Source: Acanthamoeba sp. SK_2022b (Eukaryota > Discosea > Longamoebia > Acanthamoebidae). Taken from it: DNA of 64,000 nucleotides. The stretch is taken from positions 1 to 64,000 of the forward strand of contig JANDJZ010000033.1 of assembly GCA_027943245.1 (NCBI GenBank). Direction: 5' to 3'. Positions within the stretch are counted from its first letter, which is position 1; each line of letters begins with the position of its first letter. The position numbers were made by a program, and so were the translations under genes. A model generated the notes under the pieces. It was not told where the DNA came from, did not search any database, and saw only the letters and a list, made by a program, of their open reading frames with translations. Below, in pieces: positions 1 to 36,913 of this stretch.

Positions 1-1818
1 GCTACAGAAAAAATAATGTCAATTATTTTATGTATCTCCATAAATAAAATTATAAATACAATTATATTATTATAAAGGAAATTAAAATCGTAAAACGAAG
101 CACGCACTAATGACGGAGCGGTCTCGCGCAGAATAACGTCGATGCACTCATCCGACAGCTTGCTCAGCTTGAAACCGCCCAACACGATCCTACATCACCG
201 ACGCACAGGAGTGGGTGAGCGCTCGTCCATGCTTGTGCGTGCGTGCGTGTTGTGACAATGACTACCTCCTCTTCGAGTCGTTCTTAACGATGAAGCGCAC
301 GAGGCTGAGGCGTCGACGCTCCTGCTCCTCGGCGAGCAGGTCTGACGATTGGTTGGCCTTGGCCTTGACCTCAACCCGGTCCCAGTTCCCCGTCTTGCTC
401 AGCCCGGCGCCGGGCCGGGCCGGCGAGTCCCCGCCCTGCGCCCTGCGGCTCTTGCCTCCGCTGTCCCGCTTGATCCCGTCGCGCGCCGCCCGATCGTCGG
501 GAGCCTCGGAGCTGCGGGAGAGCTTGGCCTGCGACGACGTCTCGTGGGTCGGCGACGCCGCCGACATGCCCGAGTCCGTCGATCGCGAGTTGCCGCCCGA
601 CCCCATCTGTCCTCGCGTGATCTCTGCAAGGCATGTGAGCCACAATGGCACACACTTACGCGCGCGCGCAGGCTTACCTTTCTTGATGCGGCTGCTCTGA
701 AAGTTGCGCTGGAGGAGCGACGTGAGCTTGGCGAGCTTGGCCGAGTCGTCCCTGAGCGCCGAGTTGGGGAGCTGGACCTCGATGAGCGTCCAGTTGACCT
801 GCAGGCAGTCGATCCACGACTGCACGATCGAGTGATACGACGTGACGGCCTTGCCCCGCAGGTCCAGGTACATGAGCGTGTTGTTCTGCATCACGCACTC
901 GGCCATGAATTGGAGCGCTGTCATTCACACACAACCAACACACGGCGTCAATCGATGTGTGTGTCTGGTGTTGTGTTGTGTGTTGTTTATTGCAACTGGC
1001 GCACGACCTTCTTTGCTGGTTCGGGTCTTGGCGAGGTTGAGCTTGGTGAGGGAGTGGTTGCGCCGCAGGGCGTCGGCGAGCAGGGTCACGTCGGAGTGGG
1101 AGAGCATGTTGCCCGACAGGTCGAGCGTGGTGAGGGTGGAGTTGACGTGCAGGGCCCGCGCGAATGCGAGCATCGCCACCGACGATCGCCCGGTGGCGAC
1201 GCTCGACAGCGAGTTGGAGCGGAGGTCGAGCGTGTGCAGGGTCACGTTGGTGAGGAGGGCCTTGCCCAGGGCCGCGCCGCCCTTCTCGCCCACGTCCTTG
1301 CGCTCGGCCTCGACGAACTCGAGCGCCTTGGCCGTGACGTCGCCCGCGGCGAGGCTCAATTCGGTCGCGCGACAGGTCGGCCCGGCGAGCCAGTTGGCCA
1401 CCGCGGCCGCCCCGGCGTCTCCGATCCGATAGCCGTCCATGCGCAGCACGCCGACCACACTTGGGGCCGAGCGAGAGGAGGAGGGAGCAGTTGCCAAAGA
1501 TTTCGAAGAAGATGAAGAAGAAGATCGGGAAGTGGAGGTAGTAGCAGTAGAGGGAGTGGAGGAGGTGGAAGAGGAAGAGGAAGAGGAAGCCGCCGCCTCG
1601 CTCTCCTGGGCGATGAGGACCTCCATGAGGATCTCCACCTCCTTGGCGTTGAGCGAGTGTTTAGTGACATCGAGAAGGTAATCGGTCCGGCCCGATCTAT
1701 CTTTGGCCTTCTCGCGCTCCACCAGGTCAAGAATCTTTTTCCTCGTGGTTGAGTTTGCCGACGATGAAGATGACGAACTCGGAAGGCTGGACGACGCCGA
1801 GGTGAGAGATCCCAGCAT
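1..1818 (-). CDS. Roco-family LRR protein, left copy, 5' part (cut by window edge)
   Basis: Second copy of the 5' exons of the Roco gene that is complete at 11116-20145. Inferred exons on the minus strand are 1818-1008, 917-678, 623-266, 189-108, and one starting at base 1 that leaves the window. The encoded part starts MLGSLTSASS, is Ser/Thr-rich, then has ribonuclease-inhibitor-type leucine-rich repeats (LDLRSNSL and LDLSGNML type) and a charged tail. It differs from the right copy by one extra Ala codon in exon 3 (DAADMPES versus DADMPES). Whether a full second Roco protein exists depends on sequence left of the window. Confidence 0.8.
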
Positions 1819-2341
1819 CTTCCGCTTTTCGTCTTTCCTTTATCGATTCTGGTTTGCCACTCAGGTCCCCTCTTCACCTTCTGCCGTACCCTCTCTCTCT
1901 CTCTCTTTTCGATGTTCGACCCAGTGCTTCGTTCTTTTCCTTAGCACCGTGTTTTTTGAGTGGCTTGCAATTTAGGTCTATTTAATTAACACTTGCGGAA
2001 TTCAAGAGGGCAAGAAAAGTGCAGGCCATCAACGGAAACTGGATCGGTGTTGAAGGTGCCGAGCAGGCACAAGCTCAGCAGCAATCTCAAAGTGGACGAT
2101 GACACGGGCCAGTTCTTTTCCATTTTTTTTGGTAATTTTGATTTTGTTTTTTCGAGGTTAAAAGCCTTGTGACACAAAGAGACAGAAGAGGAAAGAGGTA
2201 TTCACTCTTTCGCTGTTGCAGCATCATCGCGGCGATGGTGGTGGAGTACCCCGAACGCAGACACGGGGTAGTGGATGGCGAAGAACAAGAGACAAGTGGT
2301 TGTGGTTGTGGTTGACAGACGGCGGCTTGACGGGCTACTGT
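1819..2341. other. Intergenic gap between Roco and UBE2E, left arm
   Basis: Region upstream of the Roco start and downstream of the UBE2E stop, mirrored at 10595-11115. It contains a CT-rich tract near 1890-1908 and a 63-codon ORF without recognisable features. I see no RNA gene or convincing coding region. It probably holds the Roco promoter/5' UTR and the UBE2E 3' UTR. Confidence 0.5.
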
Positions 2342-3303
<962 letters not shown>

Positions 3304-3875
3304 GGTCTTTGTAGCGTCTATGCATGCGTGAACAAATCACAACGTAAAATCTTGGCGTTAGCAATCAAGAGACCCCGGTGCGGATTGCTTGCAGATTCTC
3401 AATTTCCTGTTGAACCAGCTGACCGCTAGACGGCACCTGGCTTTCGACGGAGCACAGGTACCTGGTGAGAGGTTGAGGCTCGTGTCCCTCCTTGTTCTGT
3501 TTCCTTCTTGGCCTTGTCTACCTTTTCGCGCGTTCGATGTTTGCAGGACTGGAAGCAAAGACAACCCAACACCCGCTCATCGCCCCGGGTTTTAACCTGC
3601 CTCATGAATGGCGCCGTTGCCGCCAAAATTTTGGATGAAAAACATTTTGAGGGCAGGTTCTGCCTGACATTCCAGAGGTGTACCTCCCATGATTGCCAGA
3701 AATTTCCGACCAGCACCGATACGCGCGGATAGACGAAATTTCGTAAGATGGCACGCTTGCCAGTGGTGGGATAGCGCCCAGGCGACGTGTAAGGAAGCAC
3801 GCCACAAATTCAAAAACTTAAGTTTAGTTCGCCTCCGCGATACTCCAACCGACAAAAAGACCAAAAGTTCGATCG
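3304..3875. promoter_or_regulatory. Divergent intergenic region UBE2E / coiled-coil gene, left arm
   Basis: 572 bases between the UBE2E start (minus) and the coiled-coil start (plus), mirrored at 9040-9621. Small ORFs are present, but at least one changes frame between the two arms (3508-3732 versus 9137-9418), which argues against coding. Most likely it holds two promoters and 5' UTRs, possibly with a 5' UTR intron. I recognise no TATA box. Confidence 0.45.
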
Positions 3876-5990
3876 ATGAGCACAACGGAGGCACCGGCGA
3901 AGATGAAGCGCTTCGTGGAGGACGAAGCCGAGCCTGAGGAAGAGGAAGACGACTTCACTGGCTCCGATGACGTTGATGAAGATGAAGACGGGTCGGACGA
4001 TTTGGATGACGAAGAGGAGCTTCGGAGACTCGAAGATGAGATTCGGCGGCTCGAACATGAGGAGACACGCCTCACCGTCGAAGAATATGTGGACGACACA
4101 ACCTCAACCGACGGCACGCTCACTCCTCGCTCTCCTCGAACGCCTCGGTCCCCCAAGTCCACTCTTAAAGCGCAGGCGGCGGCAGTCAAGAAGAGAAAGG
4201 AGAAGAAGGAGAAGCAAGAGCACAAGAAAAAGGTGAAGAAGGAGCACAAGAGAGAGAAGAGAGAAGCAGGCAGCTCGAAAAAGGAGAAGAAGAAGGGCTC
4301 CTCCAAAGCGAAGAAAGGGGGCAAGGGCAGCAGCTGCGTCAACCGGAAAGCAAAGAACGAAAGCGATGAAAGCGAAGCTGAAAGAACGAAAGAGACGGAG
4401 GACACCTCCGCCTGTGAGGCCGCAGCTAACGAAAGGAGGGAGTCTAGAGCGGAGGACCAGTTCAAGCGTTCTGGCAGCGGGGTGAAGGCAAAGGAGAAAG
4501 GCGGGAGCAGCAAGAAAGCCAAGAAGGCAACGCACGGGACAAGCGACAAACACGAGAAGCGAACAACGCTTGTCTCGCCACGGCACTCCGTAGCTTCTGC
4601 CTTGGACGCGAAGGGCAGCAATGGTGTGGGCACTACCCGAGGCAACCCTGGTACCAGTTTATCCGTTCGTATTTGTTTCATTGCTGTCACTGCTTCGCGC
4701 CAGTTAACACTTGCCTTTCATCACCTGCATAGCCCGAGGAGGGTTGCGACTGTTCAGGAACTTTACATCGGCGCGAGGTATGCCCGTCCTACATTTTTTT
4801 TTGTTTGTTTTTATATTTATAAATAAAAATTCATGTGAAACTGTGAGCAAGATCTATAAAGACAAATAAGGAATACTGCACGCCATGTGCGTCGAGAAAG
4901 GAAGAGAGACAAGGCGGTTCGCACCAACCTTGACAACAAAACGGCCAGAGAGGAAGAGGGCTCCTCGCCAACGGCCGTAACACAACACGGAAGTGGTGGT
5001 GTGGCTTCGAACTCGCTGGTGAGCATTTGTTCACCCGAGCGTCTGTTCAAATATGGATGGATGTCTGGGGGCGGGTCAGATGGGAAAAATCGATTAGCCA
5101 CTTGAGGGGAAGCTTATGTTGGCCGTGCGTGCCTTCTCAAATACTCACGCCCCGTGTGCGGGTGGCTACAGAGCTGTTCTCGGGCGAGGCCAAGAAAAAG
5201 AGATCGAACGTAGACGCACTGCTCGGGCAACAGGAACAGGAGTGGGTAGCCGCAGCACCTTCTCCCAGCACAGTCGACAGGGTATCTCTACTTGCGTGCC
5301 CAACACAACACACAACACACAGCACACAACACGAGACGTGAAGTCCTATCACTTACGTTCAACGCCTTGAGCAACAGAAGCAGGCAGTCGAACCAGTGCC
5401 ACCACTGACCATCATGGATCACCTCAAGGCCGAGGACAGCAGGGTACGGCATCAGTGAAATGGTGGCGGAGCGGGGCTGCGTGGACGCCGCTCTTGTAAT
5501 TTCTTTCACACCATTAGTTTGTTCGTTTTTTATTTATTTCAAATTTCTTTAATTATTATTATCAAAGGCGAGGAAGGAGCGGAGCAGCACCGTGACGGCG
5601 GTATCCAAGACGGACGCAAAGCTCAAGAAGCTCAAGAAGAAGTTCCAAGAGAAAAATAAGGTGCGTTCAGTGAGGTGTGTGTGTGTGGTGTGTATGTGTA
5701 AAACGAATTTAATCAATGGGTGGTGGCCGTTTTGTTTCGCTTCTGTCGTGCAGGAGCTCAAGGACACGCTGATTGCCAAGGAGCAGGAGCGTCTGGAGAA
5801 GGAGATCTACGCCAGGCGGGTTAGCGAACTCGAGAACGACCTGTCCGAGCTGCGCGTCAATGCCACCCACAGCGAGCAGCTAGAAGATACCATCAAATTG
5901 CTGCAGACCAGCGTAGAGACCGAAGCGCAGCTGCTCCGCCAGCGGCTGGCTGATGAAGAGGAAAAGGAAGCTGCTAGAAAGGTGAGCGAG

Positions 5991-6030
<40 letters not shown>

Positions 6031-6834
6031 CGCGGAACATGTGGTGGCTGACCCTGGTGGCGTTCGATGATGACCAGGCTCTGGCGGTCGAGGTGGCCGC
6101 CCAGGTGTCCAATGTGATGAAGCTGCGCGATGAGGAGCGGTCCAACTGGCAACAGACGATGCTCGCCGCCGTCGAGGCGGCGCAGGAGGCCAAGAGGCGA
6201 GAGACCGCGCTGCTCGAGGAGAAGTCCAAGATCGAATTGGAGGGCCGGCAGAAGGACAACCTCATCGACCTCCTGCGCGAGCAGCTCGCAGACCTGAGGC
6301 AGGAGAACGAGCAGCACCTCGTCACCGTCGGCTCCCTCCGCAAGCAGCTCGAAGAGGTTCGTTGGCTGCACCATTTTTTGACAAAAGAAAAATTCGATGT
6401 TGTTACTGTTTATTTATTTAATTTAATTTAATTGCATATCGGTGCATGGCAGGCAAGGAACGAGCAGGACGAAGGACCACAGGGCAGTTCGGAGGTGGTC
6501 CTCAACAGCTGGGCCACGGAGAGACAGCACCTTCAGGAGGAGGTATGCGACCCCCCCCCTGCGCACGGCCAACGCGTATTAGGAATGCGTGGAAGCTGAG
6601 CTGTTGTCGGCTTGGCTTGTGATGGGCCGGGGACCGCGGGTGTAGGTGGAGAGCCTGCGCGAGCTTCTGCGCGAGGGAGACGAGGCGCACGATCGGGACA
6701 TCGAACAGCTGCGCAAGTCGTTCGTCGAGCGGCAGCGAGATGCCGACGACATGCTGCAGCGCGAGCAGGAGCGAAGCAATCGCCTGGAGGCGTCTCTAGA
6801 CGACGCCCTCGCGCAACAGCGGGCCCGACTCCGG
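3876..6834 (+). CDS. Long coiled-coil protein, left copy, 3' end missing at the junction
   Basis: Nine exons are consistent in phase: 3876-4650, 4733-4777, 5172-5281, 5378-5443, 5568-5660, 5754-5981, 6078-6356, 6453-6542 and 6646-6834. The N-terminal part is extremely charged: an acidic Glu/Asp stretch, then Lys-rich blocks (KKRKEKKEKQE) with Ser-Pro sites. From exon 5 on it is a long heptad-like coiled coil rich in Glu, Lys, Arg, Leu and Gln. No catalytic domain is visible. It resembles golgin, TMF or centrosomal coiled-coil proteins only in composition, so I give no function. After 6834 an intron donor leads into the CA tract where the inverted arm begins, so no stop codon or 3' exons are present. 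Confidence 0.8.
5992..6029. repeat. (GT)n microsatellite at the inner edge of the left arm
   Basis: Dinucleotide tract in the intron after the exon ending at 5981. Homology between the inverted arms stops inside it. Confidence 0.95.
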
Positions 6835-6849
6835 GTACACACACGCGCG

Positions 6850-6854
<5 letters not shown>
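6030..6854. other. Unshared centre of the inverted repeat
   Basis: About 825 bases that occur once, between the GT tract ending at 6029 and the CA tract starting near 6855. It holds three further exons of the left coiled-coil copy (6078-6356, 6453-6542, 6646-6834) on the plus strand. The intron after 6834 starts with a plausible donor (GTACAC) and runs straight into the CG/CA repeat where the right arm begins. Confidence 0.85.

Positions 6855-6909
<55 letters not shown>
6841..6909. repeat. (CG)n/(CA)n microsatellite at the inverted-repeat junction
   Basis: Starts as alternating CG/CA just after the donor at 6835 and becomes pure CA up to 6909, where right-arm homology begins. It is complementary in type to the GT tract at 5992-6029, so it is the physical join between forward and inverted sequence. 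Confidence 0.95.
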
Positions 6910-6910
<1 letters not shown>

Positions 6911-6919
6911 CTCGCTCAC

Positions 6920-9039
6920 CTTTCTAGCAGCTTCCTTTTCCTCTTCATCAGCCAGCCGCTGGCGGAGCAGCTGCGCTTCGGTCTCTACGCTGGTCTGCAG
7001 CAATTTGATGGTATCTTCTAGCTGCTCGCTGTGGGTGGCATTGACGCGCAGCTCGGACAGGTCGTTCTCGAGTTCGCTAACCCGCCTGGCGTAGATCTCC
7101 TTCTCCAGACGCTCCTGCTCCTTGGCAATCAGCGTGTCCTTGAGCTCCTGCACGACAGAAGCGAAACAAAACGGCCACCACCCATTGATTAAATTCGTTT
7201 TACACATACACACCACACACACACACCTCACTGAACGCACCTTATTTTTCTCTTGGAACTTCTTCTTGAGCTTCTTGAGCTTTGCGTCCGTCTTGGATAC
7301 CGCCGTCACGGTGCTGCTCCGCTCCTTCCTCGCCTTTGATAATAATAATTAAAGAAATTTGAAATAAATAAAAAACGAACAAACTAATGGTGTGAAAGAA
7401 ATTACAAGAGCGGCGTCCACGCAGCCCCGCTCCGCCACCATTTCACTGATGCCGTACCCTGCTGTCCTCGGCCTTGAGGTGATCCATGATGGTCAGTGGT
7501 GGCACTGGTTCGACTGCCTGCTTCTGTTGCTCAAGGCGTTGAACGTAAGTGATAGGACTTCACGTCTCGTGTTGTGTGCTGTGTGTTGTGTGTTGTGTTG
7601 GGCACGCAAGTAGAGATACCCTGTCGACTGTGCTGGGAGAAGGTGCTGCGGCTACCCACTCCTGTTCCTGTTGCCCGAGCAGTGCGTCTACGTTCGATCT
7701 CTTTTTCTTGGCCTCGCCCGAGAACAGCTCTGTAGCCACCCGCACACGGGGCGTGAGTATTTGAGAAGGCACGCACGGCCAACATAAGCTTCCCCTCAAG
7801 TGGCTAATCGATTTTTTCCTTCTGACCCGCCCCCAGCCATCCATCCATCCATATTTGAACAGACGCTCGGGTGAACAAATGCTCACCAGCGAGTTCGAAG
7901 CCACACCACCACTTCCGTGTTGTGTTACGGCCGTTGGCGAGGAGCCCTCTTCCTCTCTGGCCGTTTTGTTGTCAAGGTTGGTGCGAAACACCAGCCTTGT
8001 ATCTCTTCCTTTCTCGACACACATGGCGTGCAGTATTCCTTATTTGTCTTTATAGATATTGATCCCAGTTTGCACATGAATTTTTATTTATAAATATAAA
8101 AACAAACAAAAAAAATGTAGGACGGGCATACCTCGCGCCGATGTAAAGTTCCTGAACAGTCGCAACCCTCCTCGGGCTATGCAGGTGATGAAAGGCAAGT
8201 GTTAACTGGCGCGAAGCAGTGACAGCAATGAAACAAATACGAACGGATAAACTGGTACCAGGGTTGCCTCGGGTAGTGCCCACACCATTGCTGCCCTTCG
8301 CGTCCAAGGCAGAAGCTACGGAGTGCCGTGGCGAGACAAGCGTTGTTCGCTTCTCGTGTTTGTCGCTTGTCCCGTGCGTTGCCTTCTTGGCTTTCTTGCT
8401 GCTCCCGCCTTTCTCCTCCTTCGCCTTCACCCCGCTGCCGGAACGCTTGAACTGGTCCTCCGCTCTAGACTCCCTCCTTTCGTTAGCTGCGGCCTCACAG
8501 GCGGAGGTGTCCTCCGTCTCTTTCGTTCTTTCGGCTTCGCTTTCATCGCTTTCGTTCTTTGCTTTCCGGTTGACGCAGCTGCTGCCCTTGCCCCCTTTCT
8601 TCGCTTTGGAGGAGCCCTTCTTCTTCTTCTCCTTTTTCGAGCTGCCTGCTTCGCTCTTCTCTCTCTTGTGCTCCTTCTTCACTTTTTTCTTGTGCTCCTG
8701 CTTCTCCTTCTTCTCCTTTCTCTTCTTGACCGCCGCCGCCTGCGCTTTAAGAGTGGACTTGGGGGACCGAGGCGTTCGAGGAGAGCGAGGAGTGAGCGTG
8801 CCGTCGGTTGAGGTTGTGTCGTCCATATATTCTTCGACAGTGAGGCGTGTCTCCTCATGTTCGAGCCGCCGAATCTCATCTTCGAGTCTACGAAGCTCCT
8901 CTTCGTCATCGAAATCGTCCGACCCGTCATCATCTTCTTCATCAACGTCATCGGAGCCAGTGAAGTCGTCTTCCTCTTCTTCAGGCTCGTCGTCCTCCAC
9001 GAAGCGCTTAATCTTCGCCGGTGCCTCCGTTGTGCTCAT
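6920..9039 (-). CDS. Long coiled-coil protein, right copy, truncated after exon 6
   Basis: Mirror copy of the gene at 3876-6834. Inferred exons on the minus strand: 9039-8259, 8176-8132, 7729-7620, 7523-7458, 7333-7241 and 7147-6920. The reading frame reaches the intron with the repeat tract and then enters the unshared centre in antisense, where no matching exon 7 exists on this strand. Exon 1 is 6 bases longer than in the left copy, through four separate single-codon indels in the acidic and Lys-rich stretches. Function unknown; the visible features are a charged N-terminus and coiled coil. Confidence 0.75.
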
Positions 9040-9621
9040 CGATCGAACTTTGGTCTTTTTGTCGGTTGGAGTATCGCGGAGGCGAACTACTAAGTTTTTG
9101 AATTTGTGGCGTGCTTCCTTACACGTCGCCTGGGAGCTATCCCACCACTGGCAAGCGTGCCATCTTTCGAAATTTCGTCAATCCGCGCGGATCGGTGCTG
9201 GTCGGAAATTTCTGGCAATCATGGAGGTAGAAACCGTCTGGAATGTCAGGTAGAACCGCCCTCAAAATGTTTTCATCCAAAATTTTGGCGGCAACGGCGC
9301 CATTCATGAGGCAGGTTAAAACCCGGGGCGATGAGCGGGTGTTGGGTTGTCTTTGCTTCCACTCCGCAGGCAAACAGTCCTGCAAACATCGAACGCGCGA
9401 AAAGGTAGACAAGGCCAAGAAGGAAACAGAACAAGGAGGGACACGAGCCTCAACCTCTCACCAGGTACCGTGCTCCGTCGAAAGCCAGGTGCCGTCTAGC
9501 GGTCAGCTGGTTGAACAGGAAATTGAGAATCTGCAAGCAATCCGCACCGGGGTCTCTTGATTGCTAACGCCAAGATTTTACGTTGTGATTTGTTCACGCA
9601 TGCCTAGACTATACAAAGACC
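9040..9621. promoter_or_regulatory. Divergent intergenic region, right arm
   Basis: Mirror of 3304-3875, with several substitutions and indels, including about 12 extra bases near 9362-9373. Nothing recognisable beyond its position between two divergent start codons. Confidence 0.4.
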
Positions 9622-10594
<973 letters not shown>

Positions 10595-11115
10595 ACAGTA
10601 GCCCGTCAAGCCGCCGTCTGTCAACCACAACCACTTGTCTCTTGTTCTTCGCCATCCACTACCCCGTGTCTGCGTTCGGGGTACTCCACCACCATCGCCG
10701 CGATGATGCTGCAACAGCGAAAGAGTGAATACCTCTTTCCTCTTCTGTCTCTTTGTGTCACAAGGCTTTTAACCTCGAAAAAACAAAATCAAAATTACCA
10801 AAAAAAATGGAAAAGAACTGGCCCGTGTCATCGTCCACTTTGAGATTGCTGCTGAGCTTGTGCCTGCTCGGCACCTTCAACACCGATCCAGTTTCCGTTG
10901 ATGGCCTGCACTTTTCTTGCCCTCTTGAATTCCGCAAGTGTTAATTAAATAGACCTAAATTGCAAGCCACTCAAAAAACACGGTGCTAAGGAAAAGAACG
11001 AAGCACTGGGTCGAACATCGAAAAGAGAGAGAGAGAGAGAGAGGGTACGGCAGAAGGTGAAGAGGGGACCTGAGTGGCAAACCAGAATCGATAAAGGAAA
11101 GACGAAAAGCGGAAG
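10595..11115. other. Intergenic gap UBE2E to Roco, right arm
   Basis: Mirror of 1819-2341. Contains a GA-rich tract at about 11025-11043 and a 63-codon ORF (10753-10944) with no recognisable features. Probably UBE2E 3' UTR and Roco promoter/5' UTR. Confidence 0.5.
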
Positions 11116-14100
11116 ATGCTGGGATCTCTCACCTCGGCGTCGTCCAGCCTTCCGAGTTCGTCATCTTCATCGTCGGCAAACTCAACCACGAGGAAAAAGA
11201 TTCTTGACCTGGTGGAGCGCGAGAAGGCCAAAGATAGATCGGGCCGGACCGATTACCTTCTCGATGTCACTAAACACTCGCTCAACGCCAAGGAGGTGGA
11301 GATCCTCATGGAGGTCCTCATCGCCCAGGAGAGCGAGGCGGCGGCTTCCTCTTCCTCTTCCTCTTCCACCTCCTCCACTCCCTCTACTGCTACTACCTCC
11401 ACTTCCCGATCTTCTTCTTCATCTTCTTCGAAATCTTTGGCAACTGCTCCCTCCTCCTCTCGCTCGGCCCCAAGTGTGGTCGGCGTGCTGCGCATGGACG
11501 GCTATCGGATCGGAGACGCCGGGGCGGCCGCGGTGGCCAACTGGCTCGCCGGGCCGACCTGTCGCGCGACCGAATTGAGCCTCGCCGCGGGCGACGTCAC
11601 GGCCAAGGCGCTCGAGTTCGTCGAGGCCGAGCGCAAGGACGTGGGCGAGAAGGGCGGCGCGGCCCTGGGCAAGGCCCTCCTCACCAACGTGACCCTGCAC
11701 ACGCTCGACCTCCGCTCCAACTCGCTGTCGAGCGTCGCCACCGGGCGATCGTCGGTGGCGATGCTCGCATTCGCGCGGGCCCTGCACGTCAACTCCACCC
11801 TCACCACGCTCGACCTGTCGGGCAACATGCTCTCCCACTCCGACGTGACCCTGCTCGCCGACGCCCTGCGGCGCAACCACTCCCTCACCAAGCTCAACCT
11901 CGCCAAGACCCGAACCAGCAAAGAAGGTCGTGCGCCAGTTGCAATAAACAACACACAACACAACACCAGACACACACATCGATTGACGCCGTGTGTTGGT
12001 TGTGTGTGAATGACAGCGCTCCAATTCATGGCCGAGTGCGTGATGCAGAACAACACGCTCATGTACCTGGACCTGCGGGGCAAGGCCGTCACGTCGTATC
12101 ACTCGATCGTGCAGTCGTGGATCGACTGCCTGCAGGTCAACTGGACGCTCATCGAGGTCCAGCTCCCCAACTCGGCGCTCAGGGACGACTCGGCCAAGCT
12201 CGCCAAGCTCACGTCGCTCCTCCAGCGCAACTTTCAGAGCAGCCGCATCAAGAAAGGTAAGCCTGCGCGCGCGCGTAAGTGTGTGCCATTGTGGCTCACA
12301 TGCCTTGCAGAGATCACGCGAGGACAGATGGGGTCGGGCGGCAACTCGCGATCGACGGACTCGGGCATGTCGGCGTCGCCGACCCACGAGACGTCGTCGC
12401 AGGCCAAGCTCTCCCGCAGCTCCGAGGCTCCCGACGATCGGGCGGCGCGCGACGGGATCAAGCGGGACAGCGGAGGCAAGAGCCGCAGGGCGCAGGGCGG
12501 GGACTCGCCGGCCCGGCCCGGCGCCGGGCTGAGCAAGACGGGGAACTGGGACCGGGTTGAGGTCAAGGCCAAGGCCAACCAATCGTCAGACCTGCTCGCC
12601 GAGGAGCAGGAGCGTCGACGCCTCAGCCTCGTGCGCTTCATCGTTAAGAACGACTCGAAGAGGAGGTAGTCATTGTCACAACACGCACGCACGCACAAGC
12701 ATGGACGAGCGCTCACCCACTCCTGTGCGTCGGTGATGTAGGATCGTGTTGGGCGGTTTCAAGCTGAGCAAGCTGTCGGATGAGTGCATCGACGTTATTC
12801 TGCGCGAGACCGCTCCGTCATTAGTGCGTGCTTCGTTTTACGATTTTAATTTCCTTTATAATAATATAATTGTATTTATAATTTTATTTATGGAGATACA
12901 TAAAATAATTGACATTATTTTTTCTGTAGCGAGGCAAGTCGGAATCGCAGTACGATCCGCGGATGCAGAACGCCATCCACCCCTTCCTCATGATGGCCTC
13001 CGCCCGAGAGGAGAAGCGGAGCAGCGACAAGCGCGGTGACAAGTACGCCAAGGAGATCGAGACCGCCAAAGAGCTGCGAGCCCTCGCCACCGGCTCCACC
13101 GTACCTCCTCTCCTCCTTCCTGTCCCTGCGTGTGTACCTGTCCAGTGATGCGATAACACCGATCTCTTCTTCTTCTTCTTCAAAGGGGACCACGGAGTCG
13201 CTGCTGGCCATTCACTGCACATCGTCGGAGGACCTGGGCGGCGACTCGCACACCTCGCGAGAAGACGAGGGCGTGACCGAGCTCTATCTGCACAACAACA
13301 GGTAAGCAGAGCACACACGCACACACAAGGAGAGATTCACCTAACCATCGGCCAGGCTCGAACAGCTGCCGGAGACCGTCGGGGAGTTCAAGCGGCTGCG
13401 AGCGCTGGACGTGTGCGGCAATCGTCTGGTGGCCCTGCCCAATCAGCTCATGTTCCTGACCCGCCTGCAGGCACGTCGCGCCGGTCCCCCTGCGCGCGCG
13501 CCTGGCCGCGTTGCCGCTTAAAGCAAGCAATCTAAGGAATGCGATGATGTGTTTCTCTCTCTCTCTCTCTCCGCCAATGGGCGATGTGCAGCTCCTCGAC
13601 TGCAGCCACAACGCGCTCACGTCGATGCCCTTCATCCAGCCGATCTGCACGACGCTCACGCGGCTGTTCCTGAACCACAACAACTTCACCGAGTTTCCGT
13701 TCGAGGTGACGGACCTCGTCAACCTGCGCAAGCTCGACGTGTCGTTCAACCGCATAGCGCACATTCCGGTGGAGATCGGCAACCTGCAGCACCTCAAGTA
13801 CTTCTGGGCGCAGAACAACCGGATCACCACGGTCCCGCGCAGCATCGTCAACCTGCAGTTCAGCCTCATCGAGCTCCACCTGGACTCGAACCGGCTCGAT
13901 TTTCTGCCGACCGAAGTGGGCGAGCTCAAGCTCCTCGGCGTGCTCGGGCTCGAGGGCAACCCCCTGCGCACGCTCCCGCGCGAGGTCCAGCAGCTGGCCC
14001 ACGCCGGCGTAGTGCGCAAGGTCCAGGACTACCTCAACGAGCTCGAGGGCGGCAGCCGCTCGTTCAATCGGGTCAAGCTCATGTTCGTGGGCGACGGCGG

Positions 14101-14502
14101 CGTGGGCAAGTCGTCGCTCCTCGGCTGCTTCAACCGCGAACGCGACGACGACGACGACGACCGCGCGGACGACGGCGAGCCCGACGGCGGCAAGAAGGAC
14201 AAGAAGAAGGCCAAGAAGAAGTCCAAGAAGCACGAGCCCAACATCGCCACCGACGGCATCGACATCGCCACCGCCAAATGGAACAAGTGCGCAACACACA
14301 CACTGGCTTGGGTGGGGTCTCACCTGCTGACCGGTCTGGGCTGGGCCTGTGCGCAGCATCTCGTTCCGGGCGTGGGATTTCGCGGGGCAGGAGCTGTATC
14401 ACACGACGCACCAGTTCTTCCTGTCCAAGCGCAGCATCTACCTGCTCGTCTTCAACCTCTTGCACATGCTCCAGAACAAGTCCGACGCCACCGCCACGGT
14501 AC

Positions 14503-14601
<99 letters not shown>

Positions 14602-16048
14602 CTCGTGCGTGCGTGCGTGCGTGCGTGTGTATGACTGACAACGAGGCGTGTGGCGAGCAAGGTGGACTACTGGCTTCACAGTTTGCAGGCTCGCGTGCCG
14701 GGCGTGCCGGTGATCATCGTGGGCACCCATCTGGACCTCTACACCAAGGCGACCAAGAAGAGGAAGAAGAGCAAGGACGGTGCGTGCTGCGCTTGGCCGC
14801 TCGGCTCAGCTCGCGCGCGCAGCGGCGACGCGAGCTTCCTCGTCTCACGCGCGCAATTTTTGCCCGCGGACCAATCAGACAACGAGTCGACGGCGGTCAA
14901 CGAGCTGCTGAGCAAGATCCAGTCGCGGTACAAGCGGCGATTCCCCAACGTGCTGGACGTCATGGCCGTCTCCACCAAGACCAAGCGCGGAGTCAAGGTG
15001 AGACCGAGTCCAACCACGCTCAGCTCGACGCCGAGGCTGACCGATGGACTGTGTTGCGTGTTGTGTGTGGCACAGGAATTGCAAGCGCGCATCGCCGACA
15101 TTGCAGAGAAGAAAAAGTATGTGGGCCAGCAGGTCCCGACGCCCTATGTCATCCTGGCGCGCCAGGTCGACATCCTCACCAAGAGCAAGAGCCCGCCCAT
15201 CATGGTCCGCCGGTCTCCTCCCCAAAAAGAAATAATAATGATATTTTTCATTTATTTATTTGTATTTTTTCGTGAAACCAAACGCGTTTCGTTGTTGCGT
15301 TTCGGTCAGACGCTGAGCGAGTTCGAGGAGGTGGCGCGAGCCTACAACGTCGCCAGGGAGGAGGTCGTCGACGTGCTCCACTTCCTCCACACCATCGGCG
15401 AGGTGGCCTACTTCGACGATGACCCCTCCGACGGCTTGGCCGACCGCGTGTTCCTCGTACTGGAGCCTCCCTCCCTCTTCCCCCCCCCCAACAACCCACC
15501 TTCATCTCCTTCTTCTTCGTTCGGTCACACCCCTCGTCGACTGACTGCATTCTTGTCGTTCATCAATCAGGATCCCCAGTGGCTCACGAACGTCATGAGC
15601 AGCGTCGTCACTCTGCGACACAACATCGTGCGGTGCGTTCTCGTCGCTTGGCCTCTGCTTATGATCCATCTCACCGCCATCGTCGTCTTTGTCATCATCT
15701 TCATCATGACGTCGTCATCATCATCAAGGGAGGGCAAGCTGCGACACTGCGACCTGTCGTTCATTTGGAAGCCGCCACTGTTCCCGCCGTCGGTCCACCC
15801 GACGCTCATCCAGCTGCTCAAGAAGTTCGAAATCCTCTACCCGCTCCCGCGCAGCTCCGCCGACGACGCCGCGCCTCCCGCGGGCCACGGGACGGGCGGC
15901 CTCTCGGCGCGGCCGTCGTTGCAGCAGTGGAAGGGGAAGCAGAACGAGATCGAGACCGAGGTCTCGCTCGTGCCCTGTCTGCTCGACAAGGAGCGCCCCG
16001 AGTCCAAGAAATCGGAATGGTACACCTGCACCTTCAGCATCACGTCAC

Positions 16049-16089
<41 letters not shown>

Positions 16090-18588
16090 ACAGGCCGCTG
16101 TATGAGGACGAGCTGGAGCAGATATCGCGGGTGTGGGAGTTCCAGTTCCTGCCGCTGGGCTTCTTCTCGCGCCTGTTCGTTCGGTACTCGCCCCCCCCTC
16201 TCCCCCAATCCTCTTTCCTCTTTCTCTTTCTTCGTGTGAATGCCAAGAATGTAGGGCGTGAACGACCGCCTGACCCCCCCCCCAACCAACTACCACCACG
16301 TCACTGCGCAGCACGATGAACGTGGTGGAGAGGTGTTCGAAGAACGTTCAAGACGAGCAGGGCCTGGAGGTGGTCACCTACTGGACCAATGGCATCATCG
16401 TACGGGAGCCCCTCCTCAACAAACTCGGGGAGAGCTCACAGTGAGTGGCCGGTGTGTGTGTGTGTCGCAGGTTCGGATGGGCGAGCCCAAGAGCGATCGG
16501 AGCGAAAAGGGCTTCATGGAGTACATTCCCGATGAGTTTGTGCTCAAGCTTCACGTCCGCACAAAATCCGAGTCATCCAAGTGCGTGCCCCGTCCTCTTT
16601 CCCAACACCATGTCGACACAAATTGATTGGCGGACACGTGCGGTGTCGACACATAGGCTATTCGGCCTCCTGGTAGAGAATGTCGACAGCTTGATCGAGG
16701 GTTGGTTCCAGAACCAGATCAAGTCGGTCCACGTCCTGTGCCCGCACTGCATCAAGGCCCACCGGCATCCCCCCACGACGTTCAGCCTGAAGGAGATCCA
16801 GCTCGCTGTGACGCAGGGCAAGCAGCACATGCAGTGCCACGGCGCCCTCCTCGACATCCGTAAGCCACGCTCCCCCTCCCTCGCTTGCTCAGACCTGGTC
16901 TTATGGTGTGTTGTGTTGTGTTGTGTGTGCTTGGACTTGCGTGTCTACAGACAAATTCGCTGCAGACGTGGCGTTGGTCAATATGACCGAGTGGATCGTG
17001 AGCGCTGAGAGCCTGAAAATAGGCGAGTGCGTGGGCGCGGGCGCCTTCGCTCAGGTCTACCGAGCACACCTGCACGGCCAGGAGGTACTTTTCCTTTCTT
17101 TTCCTTTCTTTTCACACACACCGGACATGCGCATGGTCTGGTGGCTCACCGCTTGCCACGGCACAGGTGGCGGCCAAGAAGATCAATCTGGTCGAGGCAG
17201 GAGCGCCGCAGGGCGACATCTCGGAGAAGTTCCAAGACCTCCGGCGCGAGGTCATGCTGATGAGGTGCGGAGCCCCCCCTCACTTCCGTGTGCAGCATCA
17301 GCGTGCGCTCACGGACCCTTTCTCCCTCGCTGGTTCACCCGCGCGTCCCGTTCGTCAATCTGCGCAGCGGACTGAAGCACCCCAACACGGTTCGTTTGAA
17401 GGGCATATGCCTTTCGCCGCTGATGATCATCACCGAGTTTCTCTCCGAGGTGCGCACACGCACGCACACGCACACGCACACGCACACGCACACGCACACT
17501 TGTACGCGTGCACGCACGAGCAGCATACGGTCGATTGATGAGTTGTGGCGATGCACGTGCGTACGTAGGGCAATCTGTACGACTTCCTGAAGGCGCGCGC
17601 GGACCACGTCGAGCAAGTCGGCTGGGCGCTGCGGCTGCGCATCGCGCGCGACATCGCCGAGGGCATGAAGTTCCTCCACAGCGCCACCCCGCCCATCATC
17701 CATCGCGACCTCAAGAGTCCCAACGTCCTCGTACGCTCGCCTCTCCTCTTGGAATCGATGCTGGCGGTCGTCGTAGTCGCGAGTGTTTGACGTTGGCTCG
17801 TGTCCCGCCAACACCGCTCTGTGTGCGACACGGCGCAGCTGGCGTCTGCGTCGCCGACCACCAGCGCGGTGGTGGCCAAGGTGGCCGACTTTGGGCTGTC
17901 GACGCGCATGACCGCGATGACGGTCAAGGGGCGGAATGTGTGGAATCCAGTGTGGCTCGCCCCCGAGATCATGCGCAAGAAGGAGTACACCGAAAAGGCT
18001 GACGTCTACGGTTACGGTAACACCTCTCCCCTTCAATCCAAATTCGCCCACAGCTCAGCGCAGCGCAGCTCGCGTGCGCCAGTACTGACCGTGCCCACCG
18101 GCAGGCATAATGTTGTGGGAGATCCTGACGCTGAAGCATCCGTTCGACGAGTATCGGGCCAAGTACGAGGCCGACAGCCAGCTTGAGGAGGCCATCGTAA
18201 ACGGCCTGCGCCCCTCCACGCCGACCGAGCTCGTGGAAGGCCTGCAGGCGCACGACTATCTCGAGCTGCTCAGAGCGTGCTGGGACCCCGACCCGCAACA
18301 GTGCGCGTCGCTCTCTCGCTCGCTCGTTGTCGCGTTCGTTGCTGCTGCTGCAGGAACGCTCACTCCCAGATCGTTCGCAGGCGCCCCACGTTCGAGCGCG
18401 TTTGCAAGAAGCTGAGCGCCATCCAGAAGCAGCTCGCGCCTGCCACCCTGGCGGCCTACGGCGGCCAACGAACGCGCGACAGCAGCTGTACGTCCAGCTT
18501 CCCCCTTCGTGACCCGAGTGTGCCTGTGTGTGATGTGTGTCGTGTGTCATGTCGACTCGTGATGTGTGTTCGATTTACTGATTATATA

Positions 18589-18622
<34 letters not shown>

Positions 18623-19145
18623 ACGATAAAAAGCGAGCGAGTCATTGGAGCCGCCAGTTGTCGCCAGCCCAACCAACTCCTTCACCGTCACCAACATCAC
18701 CAAGGTACACGCACGCTTCTCGCTCTCTTCGGTTGTGCCAACCACTGATTTTCCCGCTCGCGCACTATGAACGCATAAGCTCGAGAAGGATCGGGGCATG
18801 GGGATCACGTGCCTTCTGGTGGTCGAGAGCGAGGACGACGGCGACGATTACGACAAGTCGATCATGCTCTGGGCCGGTTGTCAGGACGGCTACGTGTGCG
18901 TCTGGAACGCTCGGGTACGTCTCGGCCAAGGCCTTCTGTTCTGCCTGATTGACAATCAGGCGTCTCCCACCGCTCACACGCCGCGCGACACAATCCGACG
19001 ACACGCGCAGAGCGGCGATTTCGTGGCCGGCGTGCCTGCGCACAAGGGCCCGGTGACCAACCTGGTCATTACCGAGGCGGGCGTATGGTCGTCTTCGCCC
19101 AAGGACAACCAAATCCTCCTTTGGGACCGCAAGGTGGGTAATCGT

Positions 19146-19186
<41 letters not shown>

Positions 19187-20145
19187 GCCTTTGTTTTATA
19201 TTTTTCTGAATATTAAAAGAATGCTAATGGCTCCGACTCATACACCCCCCACTCCAGAAACATCGAGTGAGCAAGAAGATTAAAACGTCGACTGGCACCA
19301 ACGGGCTCCTCTACGTGGCGCCCTTCCACGTCTGGTCCACCTCGCAGAACACCGTAACGCTCTGGGACGCCAAGGTTGCAACAGCTCTCCCCACCACACA
19401 TGAGGGCGACGACGCTGATCATTGTCACCGTGTGAGCGCACACAGACGGCCAAGTCGTACAAGTCGTTCGAGATTGCGAGCAAGGGCGAACTGGGCACCA
19501 TGGCCTGCATCAAATCCAACGTCTGGATCGCCGCAGCCTCGTCCATCGTCGTCTGCCAGCCCACGGTACGCCCGCGTGTGCGCAGTGCGTTTTGCGTGTG
19601 ACTGACAACGGAGACGACGGCGGGGCAGACACTGGCGACGCTGGACACGATCGCGAGCCACACGGCCACGATCAACGCCATAGTGCGTGTGGGCCAGGAG
19701 GTGTGGTCCTGCGGCAACGACCGAAAGATAGTGACCTACAACCTGGAGGGCGAGGTGCTCCAATCGATCGACAACAACGACCGCGTGCTCGCACTGGCCT
19801 ACCAGCCCTCCTGCATGCGCGTGTGGTCGGCCTCTGCCGACGGCCTCGTCGCCGTATGGGACGCGAGGGTACCTCTTCTCTTTTCTACTTATTTAATTTA
19901 TTTATTTTTTTGATCATTTGTTGATTTTATTTTGCACGTGGCCCTGGCTTTGCTCATCAACCGATCTACCACCGGTTACAGACCTATCAGACGTTGCAGC
20001 GACTCGCGGGCCACCACACGCACGCGCAGAGGGAGGTGGTGGCGCTGGCCCGATACGCCGACAGCGAGAGCGAGACCGTGTGGAGCGCCTCGGCCGACGG
20101 CTCCGTCGTCGTCTATCGCCTGGGCGAGCCCGTCCCGGCCCACTG
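11116..20145 (+). CDS. Roco-family protein kinase: LRR, Roc GTPase, COR, TKL kinase, WD40
   Basis: About 30 exons encode roughly 2,000 residues with the LRRK-type domain order. Early exons: 11116-11926, 12017-12256, 12311-12665, 12742-12823, 12930-13100 and 13186-13301. RI-type LRRs come first, then classic LRRs (LLDCSHNALTSMP at 13592). The Roc domain has P-loop GDGGVGKSS near 14090, switch motif WDFAGQELYHT near 14380 and GTHLD near 14722. COR follows (about 15076-16857). The kinase has GAGAFAQVY at 17036, catalytic Lys in VAAKK at 17167, HRDLKSPNV at 17702, DFGLS at 17888 and APE at 17958. WD40-like repeats (VWSASADG, LLWDRK) run to the stop. In Roco proteins the GTPase module regulates the kinase. 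The 13470/13471 intron appears to use a GC donor. The 5' exons to 12930 lie in the inverted repeat. Confidence 0.92.
14519..14599. repeat. (GT)n microsatellite in a Roco intron
   Basis: About 40 GT units after a CT stretch, directly behind the donor of the exon that ends the Roc switch region. Confidence 0.95.
17456..17497. repeat. (CACG)n tract in a Roco kinase-domain intron
   Basis: Alternating CACACG/CACG units immediately after the exon encoding MIITEFLSE of the kinase N-lobe. Confidence 0.85.
18590..18622. repeat. (TTA)n tract in a Roco intron
   Basis: Trinucleotide tract between the kinase C-lobe and the WD40 part; a second tract of the same type lies at about 19148-19184. Neither is read as coding in my splice model. 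Confidence 0.85.
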
Positions 20146-20266: not shown

Positions 20267-23530
<3,264 letters not shown>

Positions 23531-26922: not shown

Positions 26923-27005
<83 letters not shown>

Positions 27006-34000: not shown

Positions 34001-36913
34001 ATGGCCGCGTCAGTAGAAGCCGTAGTGGCAGGTTCGGTCTTCCAGTTTCCCTTTCTCCCGCATTCTGAGCAGGAGGCTCTCGCTCTCGCTCAAGCCTGTC
34101 CTGGCGGCCTCTTCGTGCTTACCCCCCCCCCTCGCCTTCGCTTTCGCTCTTTTGCGTCGCGGGACAGCTTGCGAGTGGGTATTGACCGGAAGGCTCGCAG
34201 GTCGACACTGAGTTTCCGGCTGACGATACGTCCCTGTTCACTGATCCCGATGGCCCTGCCCAAGGTAAGTTTCTCTGCTGGCGGTAAGAGGGCTGTCTGA
34301 AAACAGGTGCTCCCCTACTACCCAGCGGCGTCGAGAGTGGGCTCGTGGCGGCGGCCCAGTGAGATCACCCCGCAGGCGAGGCTCTTCGTCAACTATTCCC
34401 ACGACAGCGACGTCGTCCAAGGCGCGCTCGGCGACTGCTGGTTCCTCGCAGCCCTCTGCGGTACACTCCTTTCTTGCATTTTTGTCGATTTGCCAAATGC
34501 TTGTGTTGCTCTAAAATTCGATCGCTGGGCTAGTGGTGGCTACGCGGTGGGATTTAATGAAGGAGTTGTTTGTATCATGTCATCCACAGCACGGCTTGTA
34601 CGTCATACCCGCCTCACCCTGCCCCCAGCCTTCTGATACGGTGCTTGTTCTTGGTGCTGGGCTCAGCTACCAGATTCGCTTTTGGAAGGAGGAGCAGTGG
34701 GTGGTACAACCGCTATCACGAATCGAGTCCTACGATGAATTCGCATATGACCAAAAATACTTTCCCTCCGCGCGCGCGCACACACACACACAGGTGGTCA
34801 CCATCGACGATCGGATACCGTGCAACTACCTGGGCCAACCCATCTACGCCAGGTGCCGCGATCGTGCGTGTCCTCCCTTACGTCACAGGTCGCGCCCAGG
34901 TCAGCAGCTGACCCGCATGGCGCGCTCATATAGCGCGGGAGATGTGGGTGCCGCTGGTGGAGAAGGCCTACGCCAAGCTCCATGGCTGCTACGAGGCGCT
35001 ACAGGGCGGCACCGTGCCCTACGCCTTGGCCGACCTTACCGTGGGCGAGTCCGAGAACGTGTACTCCACCTCCCTCGAGTTGGCCGCACATGCATTTCAT
35101 TCTAGCATTGGAATGTTGACTCGTTCGTGCGTTCTGCGCCTCTGCAGCGACTTTGAGTGTCTGGTGCGTGAGGGGCAGATGTGGGACCGCTTGTCTCTGT
35201 TCATGGCCGAGAAATGGCTCGTGGGCGCCTCCGTCGTGATGGAAGGCCGCACCGAGGCGCTCACCCCACATGGCTTGCTCAATGTACATCTTCACAAGCG
35301 TCGTCGTCGACTACGTCGTTAGCGTAGCGTACAGTTCTCACCAGCAGTGAGCGCAGAAACACGCCTATGGTGTGCTCAAGATTGCCGAAGTGGAGGGGGA
35401 GAAGCTCGTGCAGGTGCGCAATCCCTGGGGCAAGACCGAGTGGAGCGGCAAATGGAGCGACAGCGACCCCATCTGGTCTTCGACCGATCTCTGTGTAACG
35501 GCCCTGCTCCCTTCCTCGGTGTGGTGCTCCATTGAATCCTCTACGCTGATGTGCGTTGTTGCCGCTCACGCACGCAGGCCAAGCTCAACTACCAGCCAGG
35601 CGACGATGGCCTGTTTTGGATGAGCCTGCAGGACTTTGTCACGCACTTCAACCGCCTCTACGTGTGTCGGTAGGGCATCCCCCTCGCTAAGCCATCCCGG
35701 GCACCGACTGACCCGAGCTTTTCCCAGGCTCTACCAGGACAACTTCGGGGACAAATGGCACAGGACAGCGGTCGTCGGGGAGTGGAAGGGCCCCACCGCT
35801 GGCGGGTGCGTCCTCCGCATCTACGGTCCTTGACGGTCGCGATGAAGTGGGCTTGCTCTTATCCGAACGCCCGCATGTCCCATGCCCCTAACATAGGTGC
35901 GTCTACTACGACACGTGGCCCAACAACCCGCAGTACACCTTCAGGCCCACGGAAAAGACCCACCTCTTCGCATCGCTCGGTCAGAACGACGGCAAGCTGA
36001 CGAAGCGGCCCACCTCGAGCATCGGCCTCTTCCTCCTCCGCAACGATGGCACGCAGCCTTCGGTTTTGCCTGGACACGCTCTCTCTACCGATGCCATAAC
36101 CGGTGTGTTGTGGTTGTGTTTGTGTGGCAGATGTCAATGTTCGGAAGAGCCAGGCGGTGCCCGAAGAGGTGGCAGCCTCCTGCAGTTTCTCAGATACGCG
36201 AGACGGTACGACGACAGCATGATGGTCAATGAACTCGTCTGACCCCAGGCTATCCCAGTAACCGTGTGCGTCGAGCTGGAGCCCAACCAGAGCTACGTGC
36301 TCGTTCCTAGCACGCTCAAGCCAGGCTGCGAGGGGTAAAGCTCTCACACGAACGCATCCACTTAGCACACACGTAGACACGCATACGTCAGTTGCTGAGC
36401 TCCTGTCCCTCCTCGACTCAGGACGTTCGTGCTGTCGATCTACACGGACAAGCGGTGCCCGGTCAACTTTGTCTCCTCCACCGGGACCGTGCAGGTACCT
36501 GAGGCCCACTGGGTGGAGCGGTCGTTATGGTGGCGTCATCCTCCGCTGATCGGTTGGTGCGGGGGGTTAGGCCATTGAGGAACAGGCTGTCGACTTCACT
36601 ATCCCCGGATCGGGCTTGAGCGGCCTGCGGCAGTCAGACGACAATCTCACCCTGCACTTGAGCTCACATCAGGTCAGCCCGGCCGGCCACAAGATCGTTG
36701 CATCTCGGCTCGAGCGTGGCAACCAACGCAACTGCCCGTCCATCAGGTATTCTATATCTCTTATATCATTTTTCATCGATATATTTCCATAAATTTGTCC
36801 ACTAAATACGGCACAGTAAGGGAAACTGGAGGGAGAGACGCCTCGACGCTCCGACGTTCATCATGCTGGTCACCTCCCTCTTCCGTTCGTGGTGGTATAA
36901 TAACAAGGGATGA
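34001..36913 (+). CDS. Calpain family cysteine protease (first of tandem pair)
   Basis: Starts MAASVEAVVAG with FPADDTSLF upstream of the protease core, as in calpains. The catalytic Cys is in GDCWFLAAL near 34430; the His and Asn are in HAYGVLKI (about 35363) and VRNPWGKTEW. Also typical are [35 protein letters not shown] and [18 protein letters not shown]. Domain III-like segments follow: WPNNPQYTF, VELEPNQSYVLVPST and [11 protein letters not shown]. The last introns lead to a stop at 36911-36913 (TGA) after WWYNNKG. There is no EF-hand domain. Intracellular, calcium-type protease fold; calcium dependence is not provable here. The exon layout closely parallels the next gene, so the two arose by tandem duplication. 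Confidence 0.87.

Follow-up and report, generated by a model that had tools for sequence, protein, structure and literature searches.

A mirror repeat at the end of an Acanthamoeba contig, probably a false fold-back join in the assembly of a heterozygous genome

The mirror repeat and the genes in its arms

The window analyzed here comprises bases 1-64,000 of contig C498 (JANDJZ010000033.1; 115,015 bp) in the genome assembly of Acanthamoeba sp. SK_2022b (GCA_027943245.1; 44.9 Mb, 1129 contigs). Its first 12,930 bases form an inverted repeat in which the 5' exons of a Roco gene, a UBE2E-like gene, and a coiled-coil gene recur in mirror order. Our analysis indicates that this repeat is most likely a false join made in the assembly of a heterozygous genome, and not a chromosomal palindrome. 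The features on which the argument depends are given below; C907 is a second contig of the same assembly, and P0001 is a homologue of the coiled-coil protein.

1..6029, plus strand: arm 1; starts at the first base of C498; putative allele X in 2507-5084
262..1818, minus strand: 5' Roco (LRR) exon open reading frames of arm 1; gene truncated by the contig start
2342..3176, minus strand: UBE2E-like gene of arm 1; partial model of three exons
3876..6836, plus strand: coiled-coil gene, 5' part, spanning arm 1 and the center; corresponds to P0001 residues 6-630
5992..6029, plus strand: (TG)19 run of 38 bp in intron 3 of the coiled-coil gene, just past the donor site
6030..6857, plus strand: center between the dinucleotide runs, with coiled-coil exons 4-6; also present in C907
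6858..6909, plus strand: (CA)n run of 52 bp, where C498 turns into arm 2 and C907 departs; presumed false junction
6872..9039, minus strand: arm-2 copy of the coiled-coil gene, again a 5' fragment; matches P0001 as far as residue 457
6872..12930, minus strand: arm 2; putative allele Y in the part matching 2507-5084; joined to the flank
9749..10594, plus strand: UBE2E-like gene of arm 2; partial model of three exons
11116..19283, plus strand: Roco gene running out of arm 2, with LRR, COR-A, and kinase stretches; end approximate
12931..18800, no strand: tested flank beside arm 2; single copy, simple repeats and weak gene-family matches aside; carries on the Roco gene

The arms were compared by BLASTN of the window against itself and by a MAFFT alignment of arm 1, arm 2, and C907. 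BLASTN returns a single large minus-strand alignment that pairs 1-6029 with 12930-6872 (6081 columns, 98.125% identity, 74 gap positions, E = 0), which bears out the original prediction of an inverted repeat with arms of about 6 kb over 1..12930. A repeat search recovers the arms in pieces of 93-100% identity among the 25 longest of 94 pairs. The repeat reaches the start of the window, as had been stated, and position 1 is also the first base of the contig; the mirror structure therefore lies at a contig end. The arms were correctly described as nonidentical, being separated by indels and 49 substitutions. All 49 substitutions fall within 2507-5084. The arms differ by three indels and no substitution in 1-2506, and they are identical over the 945 bp adjoining the fold (5085-6029).

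In each arm, the 5' Roco exons and the UBE2E-like gene are directed outward, as expected from the head-to-head arrangement that had been proposed for all three genes, but the coiled-coil gene points inward. Likewise, the mirror order of the genes in the two arms is as predicted, but the coiled-coil gene is complete in neither arm, being cut at the fold. Judged by similarity, the E2 gene in both arms is UBE2E-like: among 60 of 88 PDB matches, UBE2E1-E3 score highest, reaching 266 bits, compared with 225 for UBE2D. The peptides from the three exons read are identical in arm 1 and arm 2. The arm-1 Roco exons end at base 1 of the contig, and the Roco part of the arms (1-2300) contains no substitution between them. 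This observation rules out divergent Roco duplicates. The two divergent copies of an LRRK-like kinase gene that had been envisaged are thus reduced to one gene and a repeated 5' fragment in arm 1. A protein search with one Roco exon open reading frame found nothing at E <= 0.001 among 7984 candidates.

Whole-genome searches for further copies used C498:12931-18800 and C907:4600-10000 as queries. The flank 12931-18800 has no other near-identical copy in the assembly, simple repeats and weak gene-family matches aside. No contig extending arm 1 outward past base 1 of C498 was found in the assembly search.

A third copy of the locus and the continuation of the coiled-coil gene

The locus is found once more at the start of contig C907 (28,409 bp). 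Window 2346-6909 aligns with C907:1-4591 at 98.8%, and arm 2 aligns with C907:1-3711 in reverse orientation at 96.8%. Within 6030-6836 in the center, 806 bases of C498 align with C907, and two of them are substituted. The two contigs then part within the (CA)n run at 6858-6909, exactly at the point where C498 turns. C907 thus contains the same arm with another, gene-consistent continuation. That continuation, C907:4600-10000, has no near-identical copy elsewhere; beyond simple repeats, its matches are to gene families at no more than 87%.

The coiled-coil gene shows which continuation is consistent with an intact gene. In C907, the intron that holds the (CA)n run reaches an acceptor site and is followed by in-frame coiled-coil exons at 4640-5157, 5284-5424, and 5497 onward, with GT/AG borders and compatible phases. 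The nine exons spliced from C907, which define the exon numbering used here, give a reading of 586 residues. A search of a protein collection identified P0001 (927 residues) as a homologue with 71% identity over 95% of this spliced protein; a second homologue, P0002, shows 51% identity at 47% coverage. The alignment with P0001 is gap-free at two exon borders: exon 3/4, which marks the end of arm 2, and exon 6/7, at which C498 turns. When P0001 was searched by tblastn against the window and C907:1-10000, residues 6-630 were placed in arm 1 and the center, residues 9-457 in arm 2, and residues 630-922 on C907:4637-5670. The last of these segments has no match in the window except one at chance level for residues 752-874 (E = 0.009, 20.8% identity). 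The first 270 residues of P0001 also match a separate open reading frame at 3876-4826.

The fold junction thus interrupts a coiled-coil gene that is continuous in P0001. By these alignments, both copies on C498 are 5' fragments of a P0001-like gene, and what had been described as a coiled-coil gene in each arm is the 5' part of one gene of about 900 residues. C498 and C907 are probably neighbors, with this one gene split between them. No source contig of P0001 exceeds 2936 bases; the gene must therefore be nearly intron-free there, and these contigs probably derive from transcripts. Near position 5600 of C907, the coiled-coil reading frame shifts relative to P0001 close to its 3' end, through either a sequence error or a short intron. 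Farther along C907, the next gene or genes on the minus strand (6744-9635) contain animal haem peroxidase, DOMON, and tyrosine/serine-threonine kinase stretches. This combination would look unusual if it belonged to a single gene; related stretches occur in C283, C628, C501, and C896.

The three-way alignment was also read at its informative sites to follow the alleles. Over 2346-2769, C907 agrees with arm 2 at five of five sites. Over 2770-5084, it agrees with arm 1 at 44 of 44 sites and with arm 2 at none. Over 5085-6029, there is no substitution, and the arms agree with each other against C907 in one 6-bp length difference. This length state and a 25-bp duplication in C907 are the only features in which the arms agree against C907. 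The two arms are therefore not each other's closest relatives, because arm 1 matches C907 over 2770-5084 and arm 2 matches it over 2346-2769. The pattern over 2770-5084 makes arm 1 and arm 2 look like two alleles. C907 is itself a mosaic of both alleles, so the arms are not simple mirror haplotypes. Raw-read error is not favored as the source of the arm differences, because the 49 substitutions are confined to 2507-5084 and the arm-1 state recurs in C907 at all 44 sites. The 25-bp duplication is a private tandem one within C907:1-450 (near window position 2769); it disrupts the conserved UBE2E exon, coincides with the allele change of C907, and looks like an assembly error.

Dinucleotide runs and the origin of the fold

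The (TG)n run at 5992-6029 and the (CA)n run at 6858-6909 are reverse complements of each other, lie in two introns of the coiled-coil gene, and flank the fold. The same two runs measure 38 and 37 bp in C907. Runs of AC/GT of at least 36 bp occur 11 times in the window and make up 1.0% of its length; that the fold has both its borders within runs of this kind is unlikely by chance. The junction thus sits within a short repeat able to mislead an overlap, with 52 bp of (CA)n facing 38 bp of (TG)n. Other runs of this length are frequent in the window, as at 14520-14599, 21822-21891, and 26924-26983, so more false joins of the same kind may exist elsewhere in the assembly.

These data allow us to propose how the repeat arose. 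The real order would run from the far end of C498 through Roco, UBE2E, coiled-coil exons 1-3, the (TG)n intron, exons 4-6, the (CA)n intron, and exons 7-9 into the rest of C907. An assembly path leaving the center and entering the (CA)n run may have been extended as though this were the upstream (TG)n run read in complement, and would then have returned along the other strand of the same locus. With two alleles on hand, arm 1, on the way out, would have followed one of them and arm 2, on the way back, the other, and stretches without allelic difference would have been used twice. The turn would thus have been made by software rather than by a molecule, and the organism is presumably diploid or polyploid. 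An allele-switching C907 with an error at its switch, together with a C498 that turns at complementary runs, would be consistent with confused assembly of a heterozygous locus.

Of the two outcomes that had been offered originally, a native palindrome with two divergent LRRK-like genes is not supported, given that the Roco part is unsubstituted, that arm 1 has just a 5' fragment of that gene, and that the arms are less alike than arm 1 and C907 over 2770-5084. The joining of two haplotypes in assembly is well supported: the continuation in C907, the continuity of P0001 across the joint, and the allele-like arms agree with it, but C907 is a mosaic, and the join appears to run through the (TG)n and (CA)n runs.

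Several observations weigh against a false join in assembly. The 945 bp at the fold are identical in the arms and share the 6-bp length state that C907 lacks, as would also be seen with a hairpin molecule or a genuine fold-back, and C498 and C907 differ in simple sequence right before the fold. None of 12 other contig starts (6 kb each) folds back, and one has a 47-bp inverted pair; this probe is insensitive to the fold of C498 itself, which lies at 6.4 kb, and the first 6 kb of C498 are also negative. Five of the same 12 starts (C110, C810, C610, C1110, and C410) also served as whole-genome queries, and for none of them did the best candidates, which alone were scored, include a near-identical inverted copy from the same contig. 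The inverted same-contig matches on the queried contigs are all weak (71% and 75% in C110, 78% in C410). A general assembly fault is thus not seen in the 12 sampled starts or the five whole-genome queries, and the fault, if there is one, would be sporadic. The start of C210 was rejected as a further fold-back: it gives 224 minus-strand matches when unmasked (the six listed are at 72-76%) and none with low-complexity masking. The segment C210:1239-3865 is a degenerate repeat that, in the stretches listed, is TG-rich near 2475 and CA-rich near 3400, and it consequently matches its own complement.

Parsimony is what decides here among a software join, a chimeric molecule, and a duplication really present in heterozygous form. 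In the second case, the inverted (TG)n and (CA)n runs would have primed a hairpin or template switch while the library was prepared or the whole genome amplified, and a read of that product would have entered the contig; the chromosome itself would have no palindrome. The fold-adjacent 945 bp, identical down to a length state not found in C907, look as if they came from one molecule, and palindromic reads from whole-genome amplification are described in PMC13265396. Such a molecule would require an extra allele switch at about 5085 to account for the 49 substitutions farther out, and no other fold-back appears in the small sample of contig starts; we regard this origin as rather unlikely. Still less probable is a real inverted duplication on one homologue, in which a break or template switch at the inverted runs copied back the neighboring arm. 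That homologue would bear the mirrored set of 5' Roco exons, UBE2E, and a broken coiled-coil gene, and C907 would represent the other, which stayed intact. Inverted repeats 0.8 kb apart could plausibly seed fold-back copying, and gene conversion between arms could also leave them identical at the fold and distinguished by just three indels in the outer 2.5 kb. However, arm 1 equals C907 and not arm 2 at all 44 sites of 2770-5084, so the copied arm would need to come from the other homologue. The tested flank is single copy in the assembly, no contig was found there that extends arm 1 past base 1, the structure stops precisely at the contig end, and both coiled-coil copies within it are broken. 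A young fold-back duplication of this kind, seeded by the inverted intron repeats and with its second arm copied from the other homologue, is improbable on our estimate. If true, it would represent a palindrome that was seeded by microsatellites, is naturally heterozygous, and has yet to be homogenized. A telomere-proximal hairpin was rejected, since TTAGGG and TTTAGGG, on either strand, do not occur in the first 3000 bases, and TTGGGG occurs at three scattered places.

Consequences and comparison with known palindromes

Taken at face value, the contig would add to the genome one more 5' Roco fragment, an additional UBE2E gene, and a pair of truncated coiled-coil genes. If the repeat is a false join, as we favor, the extra gene copies in it should not be counted, and gene counts, gene models, and palindrome claims need correcting. 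The fold also hides the probable adjacency of C498 and C907. More generally, inverted dinucleotide runs in neighboring introns can create a false hairpin in a heterozygous assembly.

Other repeats were seen that are separate from the fold. Window segments 34324-35672 and 37633-38941 form a same-strand direct repeat, about 3.3 kb apart and 76-87% identical among the matches listed, which is probably a tandem gene duplication. A local direct-repeat array at 63326-63796 consists of pieces that are 83-96% identical. C610:2832-5129 (2.3 kb) recurs at 98% on C94, C763, and partly C209, and at 94% on C313, as a dispersed repeat or mobile element would.

C498 resembles the allelic palindromes of the first Adineta vaga assembly in that homologous, collinear regions are mirrored within a single contig. 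A chromosome-level A. vaga genome reportedly settled the palindrome question. According to PMC7749112, the first A. vaga genome revealed palindromes composed of collinear regions, and a later assembly found a single one, with a caveat from the authors about a low N50. Jaron et al. name scaffolding errors among the causes of artificial palindromes (PMC7953838). Unlike the A. vaga case, C498 has a likely true continuation in C907 and a homologue, P0001, that spans the joint, and its turning point is a pair of inverted dinucleotide runs in introns.

The structure also resembles the palindromic, or inverted chimeric, reads from multiple displacement amplification described in PMC13265396, in that a molecule or contig turns onto its own complement; the arms of C498, in contrast, differ by alleles over 2.6 kb. 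The palindromes of the human and chimpanzee Y chromosomes, with gene conversion from arm to arm, likewise have gene-bearing mirror arms and difference-free stretches, as outlined in PMC7953838. Unlike in those palindromes, arm 1 of C498 is nearer to another contig, C907, than to its own partner arm over 2770-5084, and the structure lies at a contig end.

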